Shown piece by piece: positions 7,224 through 44,443 of a stretch of 48,333 nucleotides of DNA. Every line of letters starts with the position of its first letter. Position 1 is the first letter of the stretch. The notes under the pieces are model-generated. The model did not search any database. It was not told the DNA's origin and saw only the letters and a list, made by a program, of their open reading frames with translations. Source of the DNA: Candidatus Chloroploca asiatica (GTDB taxonomy: Bacteria > Chloroflexota > Chloroflexia > Chloroflexales > Chloroflexaceae); NCBI RefSeq assembly GCF_002532075.1, contig NZ_LYXE01000102.1, positions 1 to 48,333 on the forward strand. The letters run 5' to 3'. The position numbers and the translations under genes were made by a program.

Positions 7224-7525
7224 GAAGTTTGGGAAATACATAGTCTGATGATTTGACGCAAAGGCGCAAAGGCGCAAAGGGCGTTTGCGTCCCTGGGAGC
7301 GCGGGCGTCCCGCCCGCTTCGGGAGCAACAGCGGGTGGGACGCCCGCGCTCCCAGGGGCGTCGCCTGCTCCTGCGGCTGATAGAGCATCTCTTACGGCAA
7401 CAGCGGGCGTCCCGCCCGCGAACCCAGAGCCGTGCTGGCGCAAACCGCCAGCACCAACAAGCTTCTTGGTGGTGGCAAAGCCGCCACTAACCCGTCTCTA
7501 GCATAAATAAAAAAAGGAAGCACCT
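7224..7525. repeat. intergenic repeat cluster between lon and the SDR gene
   Basis: No gene here. From left to right: a GACGCAAAGGCGC repeat (7248-7280), a 27-bp inverted repeat (arms 7291-7317 and 7331-7357, 26 of 27 positions complementary) built on GGGAGCGCGGGCGTCCC, a third half-copy of it at about 7401-7426, then two small hairpins, GTGCTGGCG..CGCCAGCAC (7431-7453) and GTGGTGGC-AAA-GCCGCCAC (about 7470-7490). A related sequence lies at 28455-28512. The cluster likely ends the lon transcript and resembles REP-type palindromes. Confidence 0.85.
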
Positions 7526-8774: not shown

Positions 8775-8823
8775 TGACCGCACACAAAAAAGCCAGCTAC
8801 GCTGGCTTTTTTGTGTGCGGTCA
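8775..8823. terminator. bidirectional hairpin terminator, 23-bp stem
   Basis: Arms 8775-8797 and 8801-8823 are exactly complementary, loop TAC. The stem contains A6 on the left and T6 on the right and lies between the convergent ends of the pspC-like and DUF507 genes, so it can stop transcription from both sides. Its cap AGC-TAC-GCT is shared with other hairpins in the window. Confidence 0.93.
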
Positions 8824-16662: not shown

Positions 16663-16736
16663 CATCCCCCGCATACGCGGGGATGGATTGAACTTGTGCT
16701 GGAAAAAGCCAGCTACGCTCGCTTTTTCCAGCACAA
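16663..16736 (+). terminator. two hairpins between binding protein and permease genes
   Basis: First, CATCCCC..GGGGATG (16663-16685) with a short loop; second, a 16-bp stem (16694-16709 with 16721-16736, TTGTGCTGGAAAAAGC) whose cap is AGC-TAC-GCT after one C-C mismatch. Placed right after the binding-protein gene, such hairpins can stop part of the transcripts or protect the 3' end so that more binding protein than permease is made, as in maltose-type operons. Confidence 0.72.
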
Positions 16737-36074: not shown

Positions 36075-38015
36075 TTAGACGCCTACCGTCCATAAGTACA
36101 GACGCCCGTCGTGGCATCCTGTTGCCAGGAGTTTGCCATCGGGGCTATAGGCGAGCGAGGCGATGCCCGCACGATGTTCTAGGGCAACAGGGATGCGGAT
36201 GCCATCGCTGAGGCGCCAGAAAAAGACTTTTTTATCTTCGCTTCCTGTGACCAACAACTGGCTATTAGGACTAAACGCGATGGCGTGGACAGGCCCACGA
36301 TGTTCTTGAAAAAACTCGATTGGCTTCTGGTCGCTCATCCGCCAGACCTGGACACTCGTATTGCTACTGGCGGCGAGATAGGCGCTATCAGGACTAAAAG
36401 CAACACGAAGAATGAAGGTAGGAAAGCCGCTCAACGAAGGCAAGGGCGACGTATCGCTCACCTGCCAAAGATAGACCGCCCCATCGTAGCCTCCAGCCGC
36501 AATCAGGGTGCCATCGGGGCTAAACGCGACACTATGGACAAACGGGCAGACGAGGGTCTTGATAATCCGCACATACTCGTGATCAACCTCACAGAGGGCG
36601 AGCGAACCACCCCAGCCACCAATCAGCAATTTTGTCCCATCGGGGCTAAACGCAATACTCTCTACCGGGCACCCGGGCAAACGCAACTCACGAATGAAGG
36701 CCCCATCGTTGGCCTGCCAGAGGCGCACCGTCTCATCATCGCTGCCGGTCGCCAAGAGATTGCCATAAGGCGCAAAGGCGACACTCCGCACACTACTGAC
36801 ATGGCCTTTGAGGGTCACGAGAGGGCTATAGCTATTGACCTGCCAGAGCCCGGCGGTATGATCGTCATAGCCAGCGGCGAGCAGATCACCCGCCGGATTG
36901 AAGGCCACTGAACGGATGGGGCTACCGATTGTCAGCATATGCAAGAGCGTTGCTTGAGGATCAAGACTTGACCCGGTGATCGCCTGGCTCTCGCCTGGCC
37001 CGGTCTGAGAAGCAAGCGGATTGCCTGCCGTCACTTGGCCAGGCACCAGGCCGACGATTGGTTCGGGGGCGGCCTCAACCGGGAGTTCCTGCTCGGGGGG
37101 GGGCGCTTCAGCGTTTTCCTGGCGTGATCGCGCACGTTCGCGGGAACTACCCTGATTACGGGCGCGAGCCAGCGCAGTGCGCATCTCGCGCGCCGAGGCA
37201 GGGCGTTCATCGATCATCACAGCAAGGGCGTGTTCGAGCACCCGGGCGATTGGTTCAGACACGTGGGGGGCAAGCGTACGGATTGGCTTGAGCGGATCGG
37301 GTTGCCCACTGATCATGCGCGTCATGCGCGTCATCGCATCAACGGGAAGGGTTCCGGTCAACAGTTGATACATGGTGGCCGCGAGCGAATAGAGATCGCT
37401 GCGTGGGTCAGCCTCGCCATCGCGCATCTGCTCGATTGGTGCATAGGGCGGCGTGAAGCCATAGATCTTGCGGGCATTGGCCGATGCATCAGCCACCTCT
37501 TCAAGATCGATCGCCACCGTCACCCCGCCACGGGCAAGCCCAAAGTCAAGCAGAATAATATCGTAACTCTGGGTGAGTTTCAGGTTTTTGGGCTTAATAT
37601 CACGGTGAAAGACCGGGACGGGGCGGGTATGGAGATAATTCAGCGCATCGAGCAATTGATCGGTCCACCGCAGGATCATGGGCATGGCTTGCGGCGACGC
37701 AAAACGGCGTCCGAGGCGATTGATCTGATTGCCCAGATCCTCACCGTGAATAAACTCCATCACAAGAAACTGCCCCTGGCCCTCGTTGAAATGGTCAATG
37801 ACCCGTGGGAGGGCCTGATGGCGGAGGCGGGCAAGCACCTGCGCTTCATGTTCAAACGCCCGTCGGTAGACGGCATCCTGAAAAAAAGTCTCTTTGAGCG
37901 CCACATCGGTACGCAGACGAAGATCACGGGCGTGATAGACGGCGCCCATCCCGCCTTTGCCGATCTGCTCAACAATTTTATACCGATCCTGGAGAATGGC
38001 CCCCGGCTCAAGCAT
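36075..38015 (-). CDS. Ser/Thr protein kinase with C-terminal WD40 propeller
   Basis: A 646-residue cytoplasmic Hanks-type kinase. Glycine loop GKGGMGAVY (19-27), Lys41 in VALKE, catalytic HRDIKPKN (Asp139), DFGLARGG (157-164) and an APE-like PPYAPIEQM segment. A Pro/Glu/Gln-rich linker (~285-350) follows, then seven WD40 repeats (~360-646), seen as SVAFNPAG, SVAFAPYG, SIAFSPDG, SVAFSPDG, RVAFSPDS, AIAFSPNS and SLAYSPDG, each followed by an LW-type strand. Seven blades make a closed propeller, probably for binding partner proteins. No membrane helix. Common in Chloroflexota and cyanobacteria. Substrates unknown. Confidence 0.94.
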   Translation of the reverse strand: MLEPGAILQDRYKIVEQIGKGGMGAVYHARDLRLRTDVALKETFFQDAVYRRAFEHEAQVLARLRHQALPRVIDHFNEGQGQFLVMEFIHGEDLGNQINRLGRRFASPQAMPMILRWTDQLLDALNYLHTRPVPVFHRDIKPKNLKLTQSYDIILLDFGLARGGVTVAIDLEEVADASANARKIYGFTPPYAPIEQMRDGEADPRSDLYSLAATMYQLLTGTLPVDAMTRMTRMISGQPDPLKPIRTLAPHVSEPIARVLEHALAVMIDERPASAREMRTALARARNQGSSRERARSRQENAEAPPPEQELPVEAAPEPIVGLVPGQVTAGNPLASQTGPGESQAITGSSLDPQATLLHMLTIGSPIRSVAFNPAGDLLAAGYDDHTAGLWQVNSYSPLVTLKGHVSSVRSVAFAPYGNLLATGSDDETVRLWQANDGAFIRELRLPGCPVESIAFSPDGTKLLIGGWGGSLALCEVDHEYVRIIKTLVCPFVHSVAFSPDGTLIAAGGYDGAVYLWQVSDTSPLPSLSGFPTFILRVAFSPDSAYLAASSNTSVQVWRMSDQKPIEFFQEHRGPVHAIAFSPNSQLLVTGSEDKKVFFWRLSDGIRIPVALEHRAGIASLAYSPDGKLLATGCHDGRLYLWTVGV

Positions 38016-38058: not shown

Positions 38059-38089
38059 CCGCGAAACTGCTACCAATGGATTACCTGCT

Positions 38090-38131
38090 GAAAGCTTCCG
38101 GGAAGCTCTACAAAGCTTCCCGGAAGCTTTC
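38090..38131. repeat. inverted repeat of nested AAGCTTCC motifs between divergent genes
   Basis: Arms GAAAGCTTCCGGGAAGCT (38090-38107) and its exact complement (38114-38131), loop CTACAA. Each arm is itself close to palindromic (AGCTTCC..GGAAGCT), so the DNA offers alternative folds and four copies of one short site. It sits between the divergent kinase and reductase-like genes with a -10 element on either side, a good place for a shared operator. Confidence 0.8.
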
Positions 38132-38134
38132 ATA

Positions 38135-38143
38135 TGGTATACT
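38135..38143 (+). promoter_or_regulatory. extended -10 promoter of the reductase-like gene
   Basis: TGG then TATACT (38138-38143), directly beside the inverted repeat, about 45 bases before the start codon. The -35 region falls inside the right arm. Confidence 0.45.
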
Positions 38144-38194: not shown

Positions 38195-40240
38195 ATGAAG
38201 CGCATTGTAAGTATCAGTCTGGGTTCCTCAGCCCGTGATTATCGTGTAACAACGTCCATTCTTGGTCAGACGATTGAACTTGAGCGACTTGGGGTAGACG
38301 GCAATACAGCGCGTGCTGCCGAGTTAATCCGAGCCTTCGATGGGCGGGTTGACGCAATCGGGCTTGGTGGTTTGACGCCGGTTTTTCGTGTTGGCCGGGC
38401 GCGTTATCCGCATCACGAGGCGATCCAGATTGCGGCTGAGGCGCGTCGCACGCCGGTCGTTGATGGTGGTGTGGTCAAGGCGACGCTCGAGCGCTGGGCG
38501 ATTGCGCAGGCCGTGCGCAAGATTCCGTCGCTGTTGCGCTATCGGCGCGTGTTGATGACCAGTGGCATCGAACGCTATCAGTTGGCGGCGGCGATCAGTC
38601 AGTATGAGCCTGAGCTACGTTTTGCCGATCCGCTGATCCATAGTGGACTTCCCTTTCTCCCCGTGCCGCGCTCGCTCGAACAGCTTGAACTCTATGCGGC
38701 CACCACGCTTCCGGTGACGGCGCTTTTGCCGTACCGCATCTTGCACCCAGTCGCACGTGGACAGGAGGGGCATGATCGTCGTGCAACAGGGCTCTTTGAG
38801 TGGGCCCAGGTGATTGCCGGTGATTTTGCGTTTATTCGCCGCTTTGCGCCCGCCGATCTGACGGGCAAGACGATTATTACCGATGATCCTTCGCCGGCGG
38901 AGATCGAGGAATTGCGCAAGCGTGGGGTGATCACCCTGGTGACGATGACTCCGCCCATCAGTACCGAGCGGCCGTTTCTCGCTGCCGATACGATCGAGGC
39001 GATCATGGTGGCCCTGCAAGAGACCGATGGGCAACCGGGCGAGGCCGATGCGCTCGATTTCATCGCTGCCGCCGGGTGGACGCCGACGGTGCAAGATTTG
39101 AATCCACGCCCGCTGCCGAAATTTGCGTTTGTGATCCACCCGTTGCGTACCAACTTGATTGCGAATGACCCCCGGTTTAGCTGGACACGTTTTTTGCCTG
39201 AGCGCGTGGTTGAGCGGATCGCTGCCCATATGCCACCGCTCTACCTTTCGCGGATCAGGGGAATTCGCTCGATTGCGACCGGCCAGGAGGCGGAAGGTAT
39301 TCTCTTGAGCCTGGGCACGACGCCCCGCGAGATGATGCGCCGTCCGCCGAGCTTTACCTATCGACGCCTCATTCGTGCTGCCCGGATGTCCGAGCGGATG
39401 GGCGCACAACTCATGGGCCTTGGGGCGTTTACTTCGGTGGTTGGTGATGCAGGTATTACGGTGGCCCAGAAAGCCGATATTGGCATTACCTCGGGCAATT
39501 CGTTGACAGTGGCGGCGACGCTCGAAGCGGCCAAGCAGGCGGTCTATTTGATGAAGGGTGGGCGGCCCGACAAGGTTCGCGCCGTTGTCATTGGCGCGAC
39601 CGGCTCGATTGGCGCGGTGTGTGCGCGGTTGCTGGCCCAGGCGGTGCGCGATGTGGTCTTGATTGCGCCGCGCCCCGAGCGCTTGCTCTTGCTGAAGCAG
39701 CAGATCGAGCAGGAGACGCCGGGGGCACGGGTGATCGCGGCGACGCACCCTGATGCCTATGTTGGCGACGCCGACTTGATCATTACGACGACTAGTGCGC
39801 TCACGGGCAAGGTGATCAATGTTGACAAGCTCAAGCCAGGGGCGGTGATCTGCGACGTCGCCCGCCCGCCTGATGTCAAAGAAGCGGATGCGGCCCGTCG
39901 TCCCGACGTGCTAATCGTCGAAAGCGGCGAAATCGTGTTGCCAGGCGAGCCAGATTTCGGCTTTGATATTGATATGCCTCCGGGCACTGCCTACGCATGT
40001 CTTTCTGAAACAGCATTGCTGGCGATGGATGGCAAATTCGAGGATTACACGCTTGGGCGGACGATTGAGATCGACCGGGTCAAAGAGATGTACCGGCTCT
40101 GGCAGAAGCATGGCTTGAAACTGGCTGGCCTGCGTTCTTTTGGGGTCTATGTTACCGACGAAATGATCGCCGAGAAACGACGCCTCGCCGAGGAACTGCG
40201 CCGCGAGCGTGGCTTGCCGCACGAGATCGGCTCGGCATAA
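38195..40240 (+). CDS. two-domain protein with acyl-ACP-reductase-like C-terminal half
   Basis: A 681-residue protein with no signal or membrane helix. Residues ~1-295 (SISLGSSARDYRV, DAIGLGGLTPVF, IIAGDFAFIRR-like segment, KTIITDDPSPAEIEELRKRG) resemble stand-alone Firmicutes proteins that I remember under the doubtful name quinate 5-dehydrogenase. Residues ~309-681 follow the whole layout of cyanobacterial long-chain acyl-ACP reductase (AAR): FAFVIHPLRTN at the start, MGLGAFTSVV, GITSGNSLT, Rossmann motif GATGSIG (467-473), LLLIAR-like strand, VICDVARPPDV, and YACLSETALLAMDG with Cys602 at the position of the acyl-accepting cysteine. A fatty acyl thioester reductase is therefore possible; a different oxidoreductase is also possible. 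Confidence 0.72.
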   Translation: MKRIVSISLGSSARDYRVTTSILGQTIELERLGVDGNTARAAELIRAFDGRVDAIGLGGLTPVFRVGRARYPHHEAIQIAAEARRTPVVDGGVVKATLERWAIAQAVRKIPSLLRYRRVLMTSGIERYQLAAAISQYEPELRFADPLIHSGLPFLPVPRSLEQLELYAATTLPVTALLPYRILHPVARGQEGHDRRATGLFEWAQVIAGDFAFIRRFAPADLTGKTIITDDPSPAEIEELRKRGVITLVTMTPPISTERPFLAADTIEAIMVALQETDGQPGEADALDFIAAAGWTPTVQDLNPRPLPKFAFVIHPLRTNLIANDPRFSWTRFLPERVVERIAAHMPPLYLSRIRGIRSIATGQEAEGILLSLGTTPREMMRRPPSFTYRRLIRAARMSERMGAQLMGLGAFTSVVGDAGITVAQKADIGITSGNSLTVAATLEAAKQAVYLMKGGRPDKVRAVVIGATGSIGAVCARLLAQAVRDVVLIAPRPERLLLLKQQIEQETPGARVIAATHPDAYVGDADLIITTTSALTGKVINVDKLKPGAVICDVARPPDVKEADAARRPDVLIVESGEIVLPGEPDFGFDIDMPPGTAYACLSETALLAMDGKFEDYTLGRTIEIDRVKEMYRLWQKHGLKLAGLRSFGVYVTDEMIAEKRRLAEELRRERGLPHEIGSA

Positions 40241-40244
40241 GGTT

Positions 40245-40293
40245 TGGTCACGTCCCCAAAAACCAGCTTTGCTGGTTTTTGGGGACGTGACCA
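40245..40293. terminator. hairpin terminator, 23-bp perfect stem
   Basis: Arms 40245-40267 and 40271-40293 (TGGTCACGTCCCCAAAAACC..), cap AGC-TTT-GCT, with T5 in the right arm. It separates the reductase-like gene from the alpha/beta hydrolase gene. Confidence 0.9.
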
Positions 40294-40317
40294 GACTGTG
40301 TTTGTGGGCTGCCATCT

Positions 40318-41097
40318 ATGAACACGTTAGAACACATCTGTATTCAACCTGAAGTTCAGCGTTATGCTTCGCCGCTGCTGTTGTTGCACGGGGCGTGGCA
40401 TGGGGCGTGGTGCTGGCACGAGGCAATGCGTGACCTGGCGGCGCGAGGTTTTGTGGTGCATGCCTTTAGCACACGGGGGCATGGGGCGAGTCATCGCCCA
40501 CGGCGCCACTGGCTCACGACGGCGTCTGATTATGGACGCGATCTGATCAATGTGGTGCGGGCGTTGCCGGCACCGCCGATCCTGGTTGGGCATAGCTCGG
40601 GTGGGTATCTCGCGCAACTCTACATGACGGGGCGCTTTGGGCCGGTGCCGCCGCTGGCTGGCGTTGTGTTGCTCTGCAGTTCGCCGGTTGACAGCGTGCG
40701 CTATTTCCTTACTCGGACAACGCCCCCTGAAGCACAGATCGATCCGCGGGCGATGCTGCGCCGCGAGCCCGAGACGATGCGCAAGCTGCTCTTCCGCCCC
40801 GAGATTGACCCCGAAGCGTTGCATGGCTATGTTGCACAGATGGTCGCCGAGCCGCCGCTGGTGACGATGCAGAGCATGGTGTTGCGGCCGCGACCGGCGC
40901 GCAACGCCACGCCTGTAGTCGTCATTGCCGCCGGGCGTGATATGGTCTTTGGCCTCGAAGCGCAGCAGGTCACTGCGGCGACGTATCGAGCCGAACTGAT
41001 TGTCGTGCCTGAGGCCGCACACGACCTGATGCTCGACCCGGACTGGCCGCAGGCGGCGGCGGCGATCGAGCGTTTTGCGCAGATGCTCCCATCCTGA
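40318..41097 (+). CDS. alpha/beta-fold hydrolase
   Basis: A 259-residue hydrolase. LLLLHGAWHGAWCWHEAM carries the oxyanion-hole motif, GHSSGGYLAQLY the nucleophile elbow (Ser ~94), an acidic residue in AAGRDMVFG and His in PEAAHDLMLD complete the triad. The cap domain is small. The HGAWHGAWCW start is like lysophospholipase- and methylesterase-type members of the family. Substrate unknown. It is 24 bases past the terminator, with no clear promoter of its own, and is followed by a perfect hairpin. Confidence 0.88.
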   Translation: MNTLEHICIQPEVQRYASPLLLLHGAWHGAWCWHEAMRDLAARGFVVHAFSTRGHGASHRPRRHWLTTASDYGRDLINVVRALPAPPILVGHSSGGYLAQLYMTGRFGPVPPLAGVVLLCSSPVDSVRYFLTRTTPPEAQIDPRAMLRREPETMRKLLFRPEIDPEALHGYVAQMVAEPPLVTMQSMVLRPRPARNATPVVVIAAGRDMVFGLEAQQVTAATYRAELIVVPEAAHDLMLDPDWPQAAAAIERFAQMLPS

Positions 41098-41103
41098 ATT
41101 TCC

Positions 41104-41158
41104 AATTCTTCCCGCACAAAAAAGCCAGCGTAGCTGGCTTTTTTGTGCGGGAAGAATT
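41104..41158. terminator. hairpin terminator, 26-bp perfect stem
   Basis: Arms 41104-41129 and 41133-41158, loop GTA, cap AGC-GTA-GCT, with A6 and T6 in the arms. The cap is the reverse complement of the one at 8775-8823. The right arm touches the first TetR operator. Confidence 0.93.
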
Positions 41159-41214
41159 GATTGACCAGTCAATCAACATGTGCTACAATCTTGATTGATT
41201 GGTCAATCAAGATT
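41157..41214 (+). promoter_or_regulatory. tetR promoter with two TetR-type operators
   Basis: -35 TTGACC (41161-41166), 17 bases, -10 TACAAT (41184-41189) with extended TG (41181-41182). Operator 1, TTGATTGACCAGTCAATCAA (41157-41176), covers the -35. Operator 2 (41187-41214) has 12-base arms AATCTTGATTGA and TCAATCAAGATT around TTGG and covers the transcription start. Both share TTGATTGA..TCAATCAA. This is a strong case for autoregulation. Confidence 0.88.
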
Positions 41215-44309: not shown

Positions 44310-44443
44310 CCAAAGCCAGCAAAGAAGCGGAGCTTCAGGGCCGCAGATGCCCAGGTATCCGCGTATGCTGGCGAACATAGTCAGCGAAGCTGACTATGTT
44401 CGCCAGCATACGCCTAGGTTTTTAGGGCGTCAGCCCTAAAAAC
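44310..44443 (+). repeat. leader-like hairpin element between permease and ATPase genes
   Basis: A 25-bp perfect stem (44361-44385 with 44389-44413, GCGTATGCTGGCGAACATAG..), cap AGC-GAA-GCT, is followed by CTAGG and a second hairpin GTTTTTAGGGC-GTCA-GCCCTAAAAAC (44418-44443). A small GAAGC-GGA-GCTTC hairpin precedes it near 44323-44335. The gap interrupts an otherwise tight operon and could lower or delay expression of the ATPase and adaptor. Confidence 0.8.

Follow-up and report, generated by a model that had tools for sequence, protein, structure and literature searches.

The DNA analysed here (the window) is a stretch of 48,333 nucleotides from Candidatus Chloroploca asiatica, contig NZ_LYXE01000102.1. 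At positions 38195-40240 (+) a single open frame with an ATG start encodes a 681-residue protein in which a reductase module related to acyl-ACP reductase (AAR) and PigE is fused to a second domain. The reductase module forms the C-terminal half (residues 310-681; 39122..40237, +); the N-terminal half (residues 1-305; 38195..39109, +) lacks the catalytic cysteine, has an AAR-like predicted fold and has relatives that stand alone elsewhere. The original prediction, made from the letters of this stretch, described a frame of this length with the AAR block order, and every block that it named was located: FAFVIHP at residue 310, GLGAFTS at 408, GNSLT at 434, GATGSIG at 467 and YACLSET at 600, which makes the cysteine residue 602. 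A second fused copy, 51% identical, lies on a different contig of the same genome, and the gene in the window is paralog 1 of the two by tree. The fused protein was matched in 53 of 61 searched genomes at E 0.001, strongly (6e-45 or better) in 50 of them and by short, weak matches confined to the nucleotide-binding part in three (G037, G043, G058), with no match at this threshold in the remaining 8. Differences between the window gene and its relative in L037 fall mostly at third codon positions (364 vs 118 and 56). Given these matches and this pattern of differences, the fused ORF (open reading frame) is real and conserved, and neither a chance frame nor an assembly join.

The C-terminal half was placed by families, structures and predicted fold. 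A NCBIfam scan returned PigE (NF053554; 3.4e-53, residues 353-667) first and AAR (TIGR04058; 5.2e-14, residues 361-642) second. The NF053554 score, 181.2 against a cut-off of 850 bits, covers the reductase part only, and the protein is not assigned as a PigE equivalog. In a phmmer search of the PDB, residues 359-646 matched AAR 6jzq (E 5.9e-10) and residues 360-662 matched 4ppm (E 1.6e-28), an entry that carries the name aminotransferase and that we take to be PigE; a profile of 16 C-terminal halves matched 4ppm at 7.5e-61 and AAR at 3.3e-51. In an AlphaFold2 model holding this half (13 rows; mean pLDDT 86.9, pTM 0.71), VIA-align 2 superposed it on AAR 6jzq with Z 35.1 (root-mean-square deviation 2.4, 325 residues aligned, 22% identity) and on the carmabin TAD domain 9e4s with Z 34.0, the first other family following at Z 15.8. 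The shikimate-dehydrogenase-type structure 1nvt reached Z 14.2 as against 35.1 for AAR, and so the C-terminal half did not group with shikimate dehydrogenase, the placement against which the original prediction had set its own. The Pfam family of shikimate/quinate 5-dehydrogenases, PF01488, scored 23.4 bits against a gathering cut-off of 24.3, solely over residues 459-564.

Alignment to AAR pairs the dinucleotide loop GATGSIG (residues 467-473; 39593..39613, +) with GATGDIG (AAR residues 162-168; PMC7089970), Cys602 (39998..40000, +) with Cys294, His315 with His7, Arg496 with Arg193 and Arg622 with Arg314, and replaces AAR Arg189 and Tyr247 by Pro492 and Arg557. An excerpt of PMC7089970 describes what these residues do in AAR. 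Conservation was assessed over 83 distinct reading frames among the collected loci: Cys602 and Glu605 are present in all 82 readable rows, the three glycines of the GxxGxxG loop in 83 of 83 and His315 in 81 of 82; residue 622 is Arg in 66 rows and Lys in 12. The AAR-like C-terminal half of the original prediction is thus borne out by fold, loop and cysteine, the last at the place of AAR Cys294. Together these features support an AAR/PigE-type thioester reductase, the chemistry of which would follow that of AAR, PigE and TamH. Activity of the reductase domain is reported for both PigE and TamH (excerpts of PMC8341465 and PMC9594044), which shows that a reductase of this type can function as part of a fused enzyme, and TamH is reported to be NADH-specific (excerpt of PMC9594044).

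The N-terminal half is matched by no family in the searches made. Pfam gave nothing for residues 1-300 up to E 1, with no PF01488 match in this half at the same limit; NCBIfam gave nothing over it among the best 25 of 38 matches, nor any match up to 0.01 for two stand-alone relatives; and PDB sequences gave none, the best profile hit being to an unrelated protein at E 0.15. An AlphaFold2 model of this half alone (36 rows) has a pLDDT of 92.5, and in a fold search the best of 1000 chains was AAR (Z 14.3, root-mean-square deviation 4.8, 248 residues aligned, over AAR residues 1-344), followed by the carmabin domain (Z 13.7 to 12.5) and then by unrelated glutamate dehydrogenase and sugar-binding proteins at Z 9.9 and below; a family missing from the fold list was not counted as excluded. 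Foldseek counts against an AAR fold, placing a sugar-binding protein first (1.7e-6) and AAR second (3.7e-6) with TM-scores of at most 0.47. The predicted fold is nevertheless nearest to AAR and clearly above unrelated Rossmann proteins, and this half, originally proposed as a separate domain, is not clearly foreign.

As read from the models, the order of strands and helices is the same in the two halves, except for three helices at residues 319-344 and strands near 579-587. By the starts of the helices, Asp265 (38987..38989, +) would occupy the place of Cys602, and Glu268 (38996..38998, +) that of Glu605. Among 102 distinct N-terminal rows the former column is Asn in 92, Asp in 6 and Ala in 4, with cysteine in none, and Glu268 is invariant (102/102). 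The GxxGxxG loop is missing from the N-terminal half; a G-x-D-R-W-G loop is kept in most of the 102 rows, as is Asp145, with which the second strand ends, and the loop reads G-I-E-R-Y-Q in the window protein. Direct comparison of the halves by hhalign aligned only the 13 columns of their shared linker (A3 vs A4) or gave a probability of 3.2 (A2 vs A4). A larger comparison stayed inside the range of shuffled profiles, at 17.8 locally against 15.8 +/- 2.7 and at 8.2 globally against 3.4 +/- 2.5 (largest 16.9), with 150 shuffled profiles for each, and hmmsearch --max, run in both directions, found nothing below E 0.3. A sequence-based proof that the halves are duplicates was therefore rejected. 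As every sequence comparison is non-significant, what relates the two halves is their predicted fold, and on this basis they may share a common descent.

Of 400 Chloroflexota genomes drawn, 74 were matched at a threshold of 1e-10; the phylum was deduced from the 94% identity of named Chloroflexota records to the N-half of G331, which belongs to it as well. The fused gene is present in 37 (two of which have an extra stand-alone N-half), both halves occur as separate genes in 24, the C-half alone in 8, the N-half alone in 4, and one match is weak. Among the eight genomes with a C-half only, G190 carries an aminotransferase fusion, G289 a distant form and G016, by tree, a fused-type gene that has lost its N-half. 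Fused N-halves fell on one side of a branch in 200 of 200 bootstrap trees, and in the tree of C-halves two rows without an N-half are nested within the fused group, a position that is read as loss of the N-half. The trees, in which L181 was entered whole in both and row P2_L042 grouped with paralog 1, show two apparent fused subfamilies, paralog 1 and paralog 2. The Promineifilum record genome (L174) has a paralog-2-type fused gene (L207, 68% identical to L178) as well as a stand-alone N-half. Seven of nine paralog-2 proteins have a hydrophobic C-terminal stretch (19-residue mean of at least 1.2; three reach 1.6), and a clear hydrophobic end was not seen in the paralog-2 copies of the window's genome (L050) and of L181. 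In L036 (7005-9287), L046 (3217-5484) and L188 (2791-4986) the hydrophobic end is followed by basic residues and resembles a tail anchor.

Among paralog-2 loci from 17 genomes, L089 being left out, a gene for wax ester synthase (WS/DGAT) lies directly downstream on the same strand in seven (L047, L178, L179, L180, L181, L184, L185), all within genera g4 and g12. In L178, L179 and L180 the two frames overlap by 4 bases (ATGA) in ORF coordinates, with starts assigned mechanically, so that the length of such short overlaps varies with the start chosen. The neighbours in L178 and L180 are full WS/DGAT proteins, and that of L178 scores 394.5 bits with TIGR02946 (cut-off 309.95) and has the HHxxxDG motif as HHCLADG. 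In a set of 41 genomes, in which paralog 2 was assigned from identities and checked further for G004, G007, G011 and G023, the WS/DGAT family PF03007 was found in 11, that is in 11 of the 15 with paralog 2 and in none of the 26 without it (Fisher 4.3e-7, relatedness ignored). The WS/DGAT gene directly follows paralog 2 in four of these 11; G042, G048 and G051 have two such genes each, none adjacent. Wax esters of Roseiflexus and Chloroflexus and a putative WS/DGAT of Roseiflexus castenholzii have been published (excerpts of PMC4400912 and PMC4520822, respectively).

A stand-alone family related to the N-half, originally suggested as a Firmicutes family of doubtful name, is confirmed to exist, mainly in Anaerolineae. 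One contig scan gave at least 519 relatives, and the best 80, to which the counts that follow refer, are nearly all from Chloroflexota, with one record each from Aminicenantes and Neomarinimicrobiota. Stand-alone proteins of this family are 30 to 39% identical to the N-half in the window and related to it over residues 1-300, and they may be those annotated as 'quinate 5-dehydrogenase'. Relatives of an NTP transferase and of a PAP2 protein, both with L085 as reference, accompany 72 and 69 of the 80 loci, respectively. In L085 (7197-9529) and in most of L098-L177, the N-half gene, a MobA-like NTP transferase gene and a PAP2 phosphatase gene form a conserved unit, which is present also in the Aminicenantes and Neomarinimicrobiota records. 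At 1e-6, none of 11 genomes from the window's order has the NTP transferase, and 12 of 14 from elsewhere in the phylum do. For 48 of the 80 loci the genome was searched for a C-half at 1e-10; 29 had a match, of which 27 reached at least 1e-130 and two were short, weak hits, and none was found in the genomes of the Aminicenantes and Neomarinimicrobiota loci. No stand-alone N-half was found in the plasmids or viral contigs searched. In Anaerolineae-like genomes the separate C-half genes belong to a conserved cluster (L084, 3554-15998, with matching ORFs in L078, L080, L082 and L094) that encodes DUF4388, a Ras-like GTPase, an alpha/beta hydrolase, V4R, a hexapeptide protein, a response regulator-GGDEF protein and a multi-GAF protein with about ten GAF domains.

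In the window, the fused gene is followed by a gene for a 259-residue alpha/beta hydrolase (40318..41097, +), relatives of which follow paralog 1, in the same orientation, in 18 of 30 loci (L001 and L003-L031, most covered to about 1.5 kb downstream and some to less). In L037 and L038 paralog 1 and the hydrolase gene overlap by GTGA, again with mechanical starts. The window hydrolase and that of the L084 cluster are distant relatives (31.7% over 97 residues, E 2e-7). A long, near-perfect, terminator-like hairpin (40242..40296; 27 pairs, -50.8 kcal/mol) separates the fused gene from the hydrolase gene, and an inverted-repeat scan identified a second long and perfect one after the hydrolase gene (41103..41159). 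These two and the hairpins at 8775-8823 and 16694-16736, all located between ORFs, have in common a core composed of an A-run, CCAGC, three bases, GCTGG and a T-run (4 matches with at most 3 mismatches vs 0 expected), and differ in their outer stems. All four are terminator-like but with very long stems, and the genome has three copies of one exact form of the core. Further long inverted repeats (25-31 nt, spacer 3-11 nt) are present at 645-700, 7288-7360, 44361-44413 and 38082-38139, the last close upstream of the fused gene. The frame at 36075-38015 (-), divergent from the fused gene, encodes a protein kinase domain joined to WD40 repeats. Recurring neighbours such as the glpX FBPase, accompanied by an O-antigen ligase-like protein, and an M23 peptidase indicate nothing specific.

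We consider it somewhat probable that the fused protein is a two-domain reductase that converts acyl thioesters to aldehydes for wax-type lipids, with the N-half as its built-in partner. The C-half would take an acyl group from acyl carrier protein (ACP) or coenzyme A (CoA) onto Cys602, and the acyl-enzyme would then be reduced with NAD(P)H bound at the GATGSIG loop, as may be expected from AAR, PigE and TamH, with release of a fatty aldehyde. Reduction to the alcohol and esterification into a wax-type lipid would follow, the latter presumably catalysed in some relatives by the WS/DGAT encoded after the sister paralog, and the Cys-less N-half may assist the reductase within the same chain. The family is a candidate for wax alcohol synthesis because, in relatives, the sister gene is linked to one for a wax ester synthase. 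Several observations weigh against this interpretation. The C-half scores 52.3 bits with TIGR04058, for which the cut-off is 449.7, and is not a cyanobacterial AAR equivalog. An adjacent WS/DGAT is missing from 10 of the 17 paralog-2 genomes, in one of which (L182) the contig ends too early, and from all 30 paralog-1 loci, most of them covered to about 1.5 kb downstream. No PF03007 match was found in the window's genome, one of the four in the 41-genome set with paralog 2 and without WS/DGAT, or in its two same-genus relatives, all three of which have both paralogs. The 27-pair hairpin makes co-transcription of the fused gene and the hydrolase gene in the window doubtful, and the L084-type cluster looks like a signalling system that encloses a thioester reductase. 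The wax ester route of the original prediction thus gains a WS/DGAT context for paralog 2 and finds no WS/DGAT in the genome from which the prediction was made; for this reason, the final product of the window gene is uncertain. Where WS/DGAT is absent, the neighbouring alpha/beta hydrolase is a candidate only.

The signalling-type surroundings of the separate C-half in Anaerolineae-like genomes would also suit a reductase that supplies aldehydes for something other than wax, such as alkylamines, as with TamH and PigE, other alkyl lipids or a signal, with the WS/DGAT pairing a later recruitment in two genera. The same module occurs with aminotransferases in PigE and TamH, and one Chloroflexota protein (L096, 6018-8564) has an N-terminal aminotransferase followed by the reductase module, the order of TamH. 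The restriction of the pairing to g4 and g12 points the same way, but the scanned part of the fused-gene neighbourhoods contains no aminotransferase, and in the 41 genomes WS/DGAT occurs solely with paralog 2; on balance, we regard such other products as a minority possibility. That these genes and the alkylamine lipids of Deinococcus/Thermus have a common reason is no more than a speculation. Hydrocarbons made through ADO were rejected as a product: PF11266 was detected in two of 14 controls, including Synechococcus elongatus, and in none of the 41 genomes, the window's included, so that the statement that no ADO gene is near holds and the hydrocarbon route proposed with it is not borne out.

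A different division of labour within the protein would make the N-half a second catalytic domain that reduces the aldehyde to the alcohol, and the protein a new make of alcohol-forming fatty acyl reductase. The AAR-like predicted fold, the retention of the G-x-D-R-W-G loop and Asp145 in most rows and the lack of any gene between reductase and WS/DGAT in L178-L180 would fit this proposal. It is set against the missing GxxGxxG motif and the divergent loop of the window protein, the association of the stand-alone family with NTP transferase and PAP2, and the lack of a full C-half match in 19 to 21 of the 48 searched genomes that have a stand-alone N-half (the range reflecting the two short, weak matches, with genome completeness not given), and we judge it unlikely. 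The fuller version, a self-contained enzyme of two AAR-fold domains in which the aldehyde would come from the Cys602 domain and the alcohol that feeds WS/DGAT from the Cys-less one, is a shade more doubtful still. Fatty alcohols might instead come from another reductase, an FcrA-type relative of HMG-CoA reductase, FarA or an Acr1-like short-chain dehydrogenase/reductase (SDR), with the fused protein doing something else. FcrA is reported in ~25% of predicted wax-ester bacteria (excerpt of PMC11948995), and in a set of 16 genomes every member has a single HMG-CoA reductase family gene, assigned at family level, as well as SDR-like PF07993 matches. FcrA as an extra gene was rejected, since the HMG-CoA reductase family gene is single in each of the 16, including genomes without WS/DGAT. 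The mevalonate enzyme would be expected as one such gene per genome. Outside two Herpetosiphon-like genomes ('Herpetosiphon-like', 'Chloroflexus-like' and 'Roseiflexus-like' being presumed genome labels), PF07993 matches reach 2.5e-16 at best, and LuxC is present in three of the 16 and absent from 13, among them the window's genome and the Chloroflexus-like ones. A different source of the alcohol is, in our estimate, improbable, and the two-domain reductase that supplies aldehydes for wax-type lipids is retained as the preferred reading.

Compared with known systems, the fused protein shares with cyanobacterial AAR (TIGR04058; 6jzq, 6jzu, 6jzy) the fold, the cysteine, the dinucleotide loop and the histidine at position 315, and differs in its extra N-terminal domain, its low sequence identity, Pro492 and Arg557 and the absence of ADO from the genomes. 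The reductase domains of PigE, TamH and carmabin TAD (NF053554, 4ppm, 9e4s) are its closest sequence match and have the same cysteine; no aminotransferase domain was detected in the fused protein, and its partner domain is of another kind. The stand-alone family is related to the fused N-half but is encoded by a gene of its own, accompanied in most cases by NTP transferase and PAP2. Alcohol-forming reductases (FarA, PF07993; FcrA) have the same proposed place in wax ester synthesis, and the fused protein has no PF07993 or HMG-CoA reductase match up to E 1. It is a known kind of reductase in a new domain union, and its N-terminal domain, of AAR-like predicted fold, belongs to a family absent from Pfam and NCBIfam. 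In the open-licence literature searched, no paper combined the terms acyl-ACP reductase and Chloroflexus, and the matches listed include no paper about an enzyme of this sort from Chloroflexota and nowhere name the fatty acyl reductase for the wax esters of Roseiflexus and Chloroflexus.

These wax esters are a measured storage pool in hot-spring mats (excerpt of PMC4400912), and the pair of paralog 2 and WS/DGAT is a directly testable candidate for the source of their fatty acyl reductase activity. The AAR/thioester reductase family gains a new partner domain, and the widespread N-half family a first clue from fold and gene neighbours. If the two-domain alcohol-forming reading were true, the protein would add a new architecture to those of FarA, AcrB and FcrA, with a Cys-less domain that would be ancient and that elsewhere stands alone.

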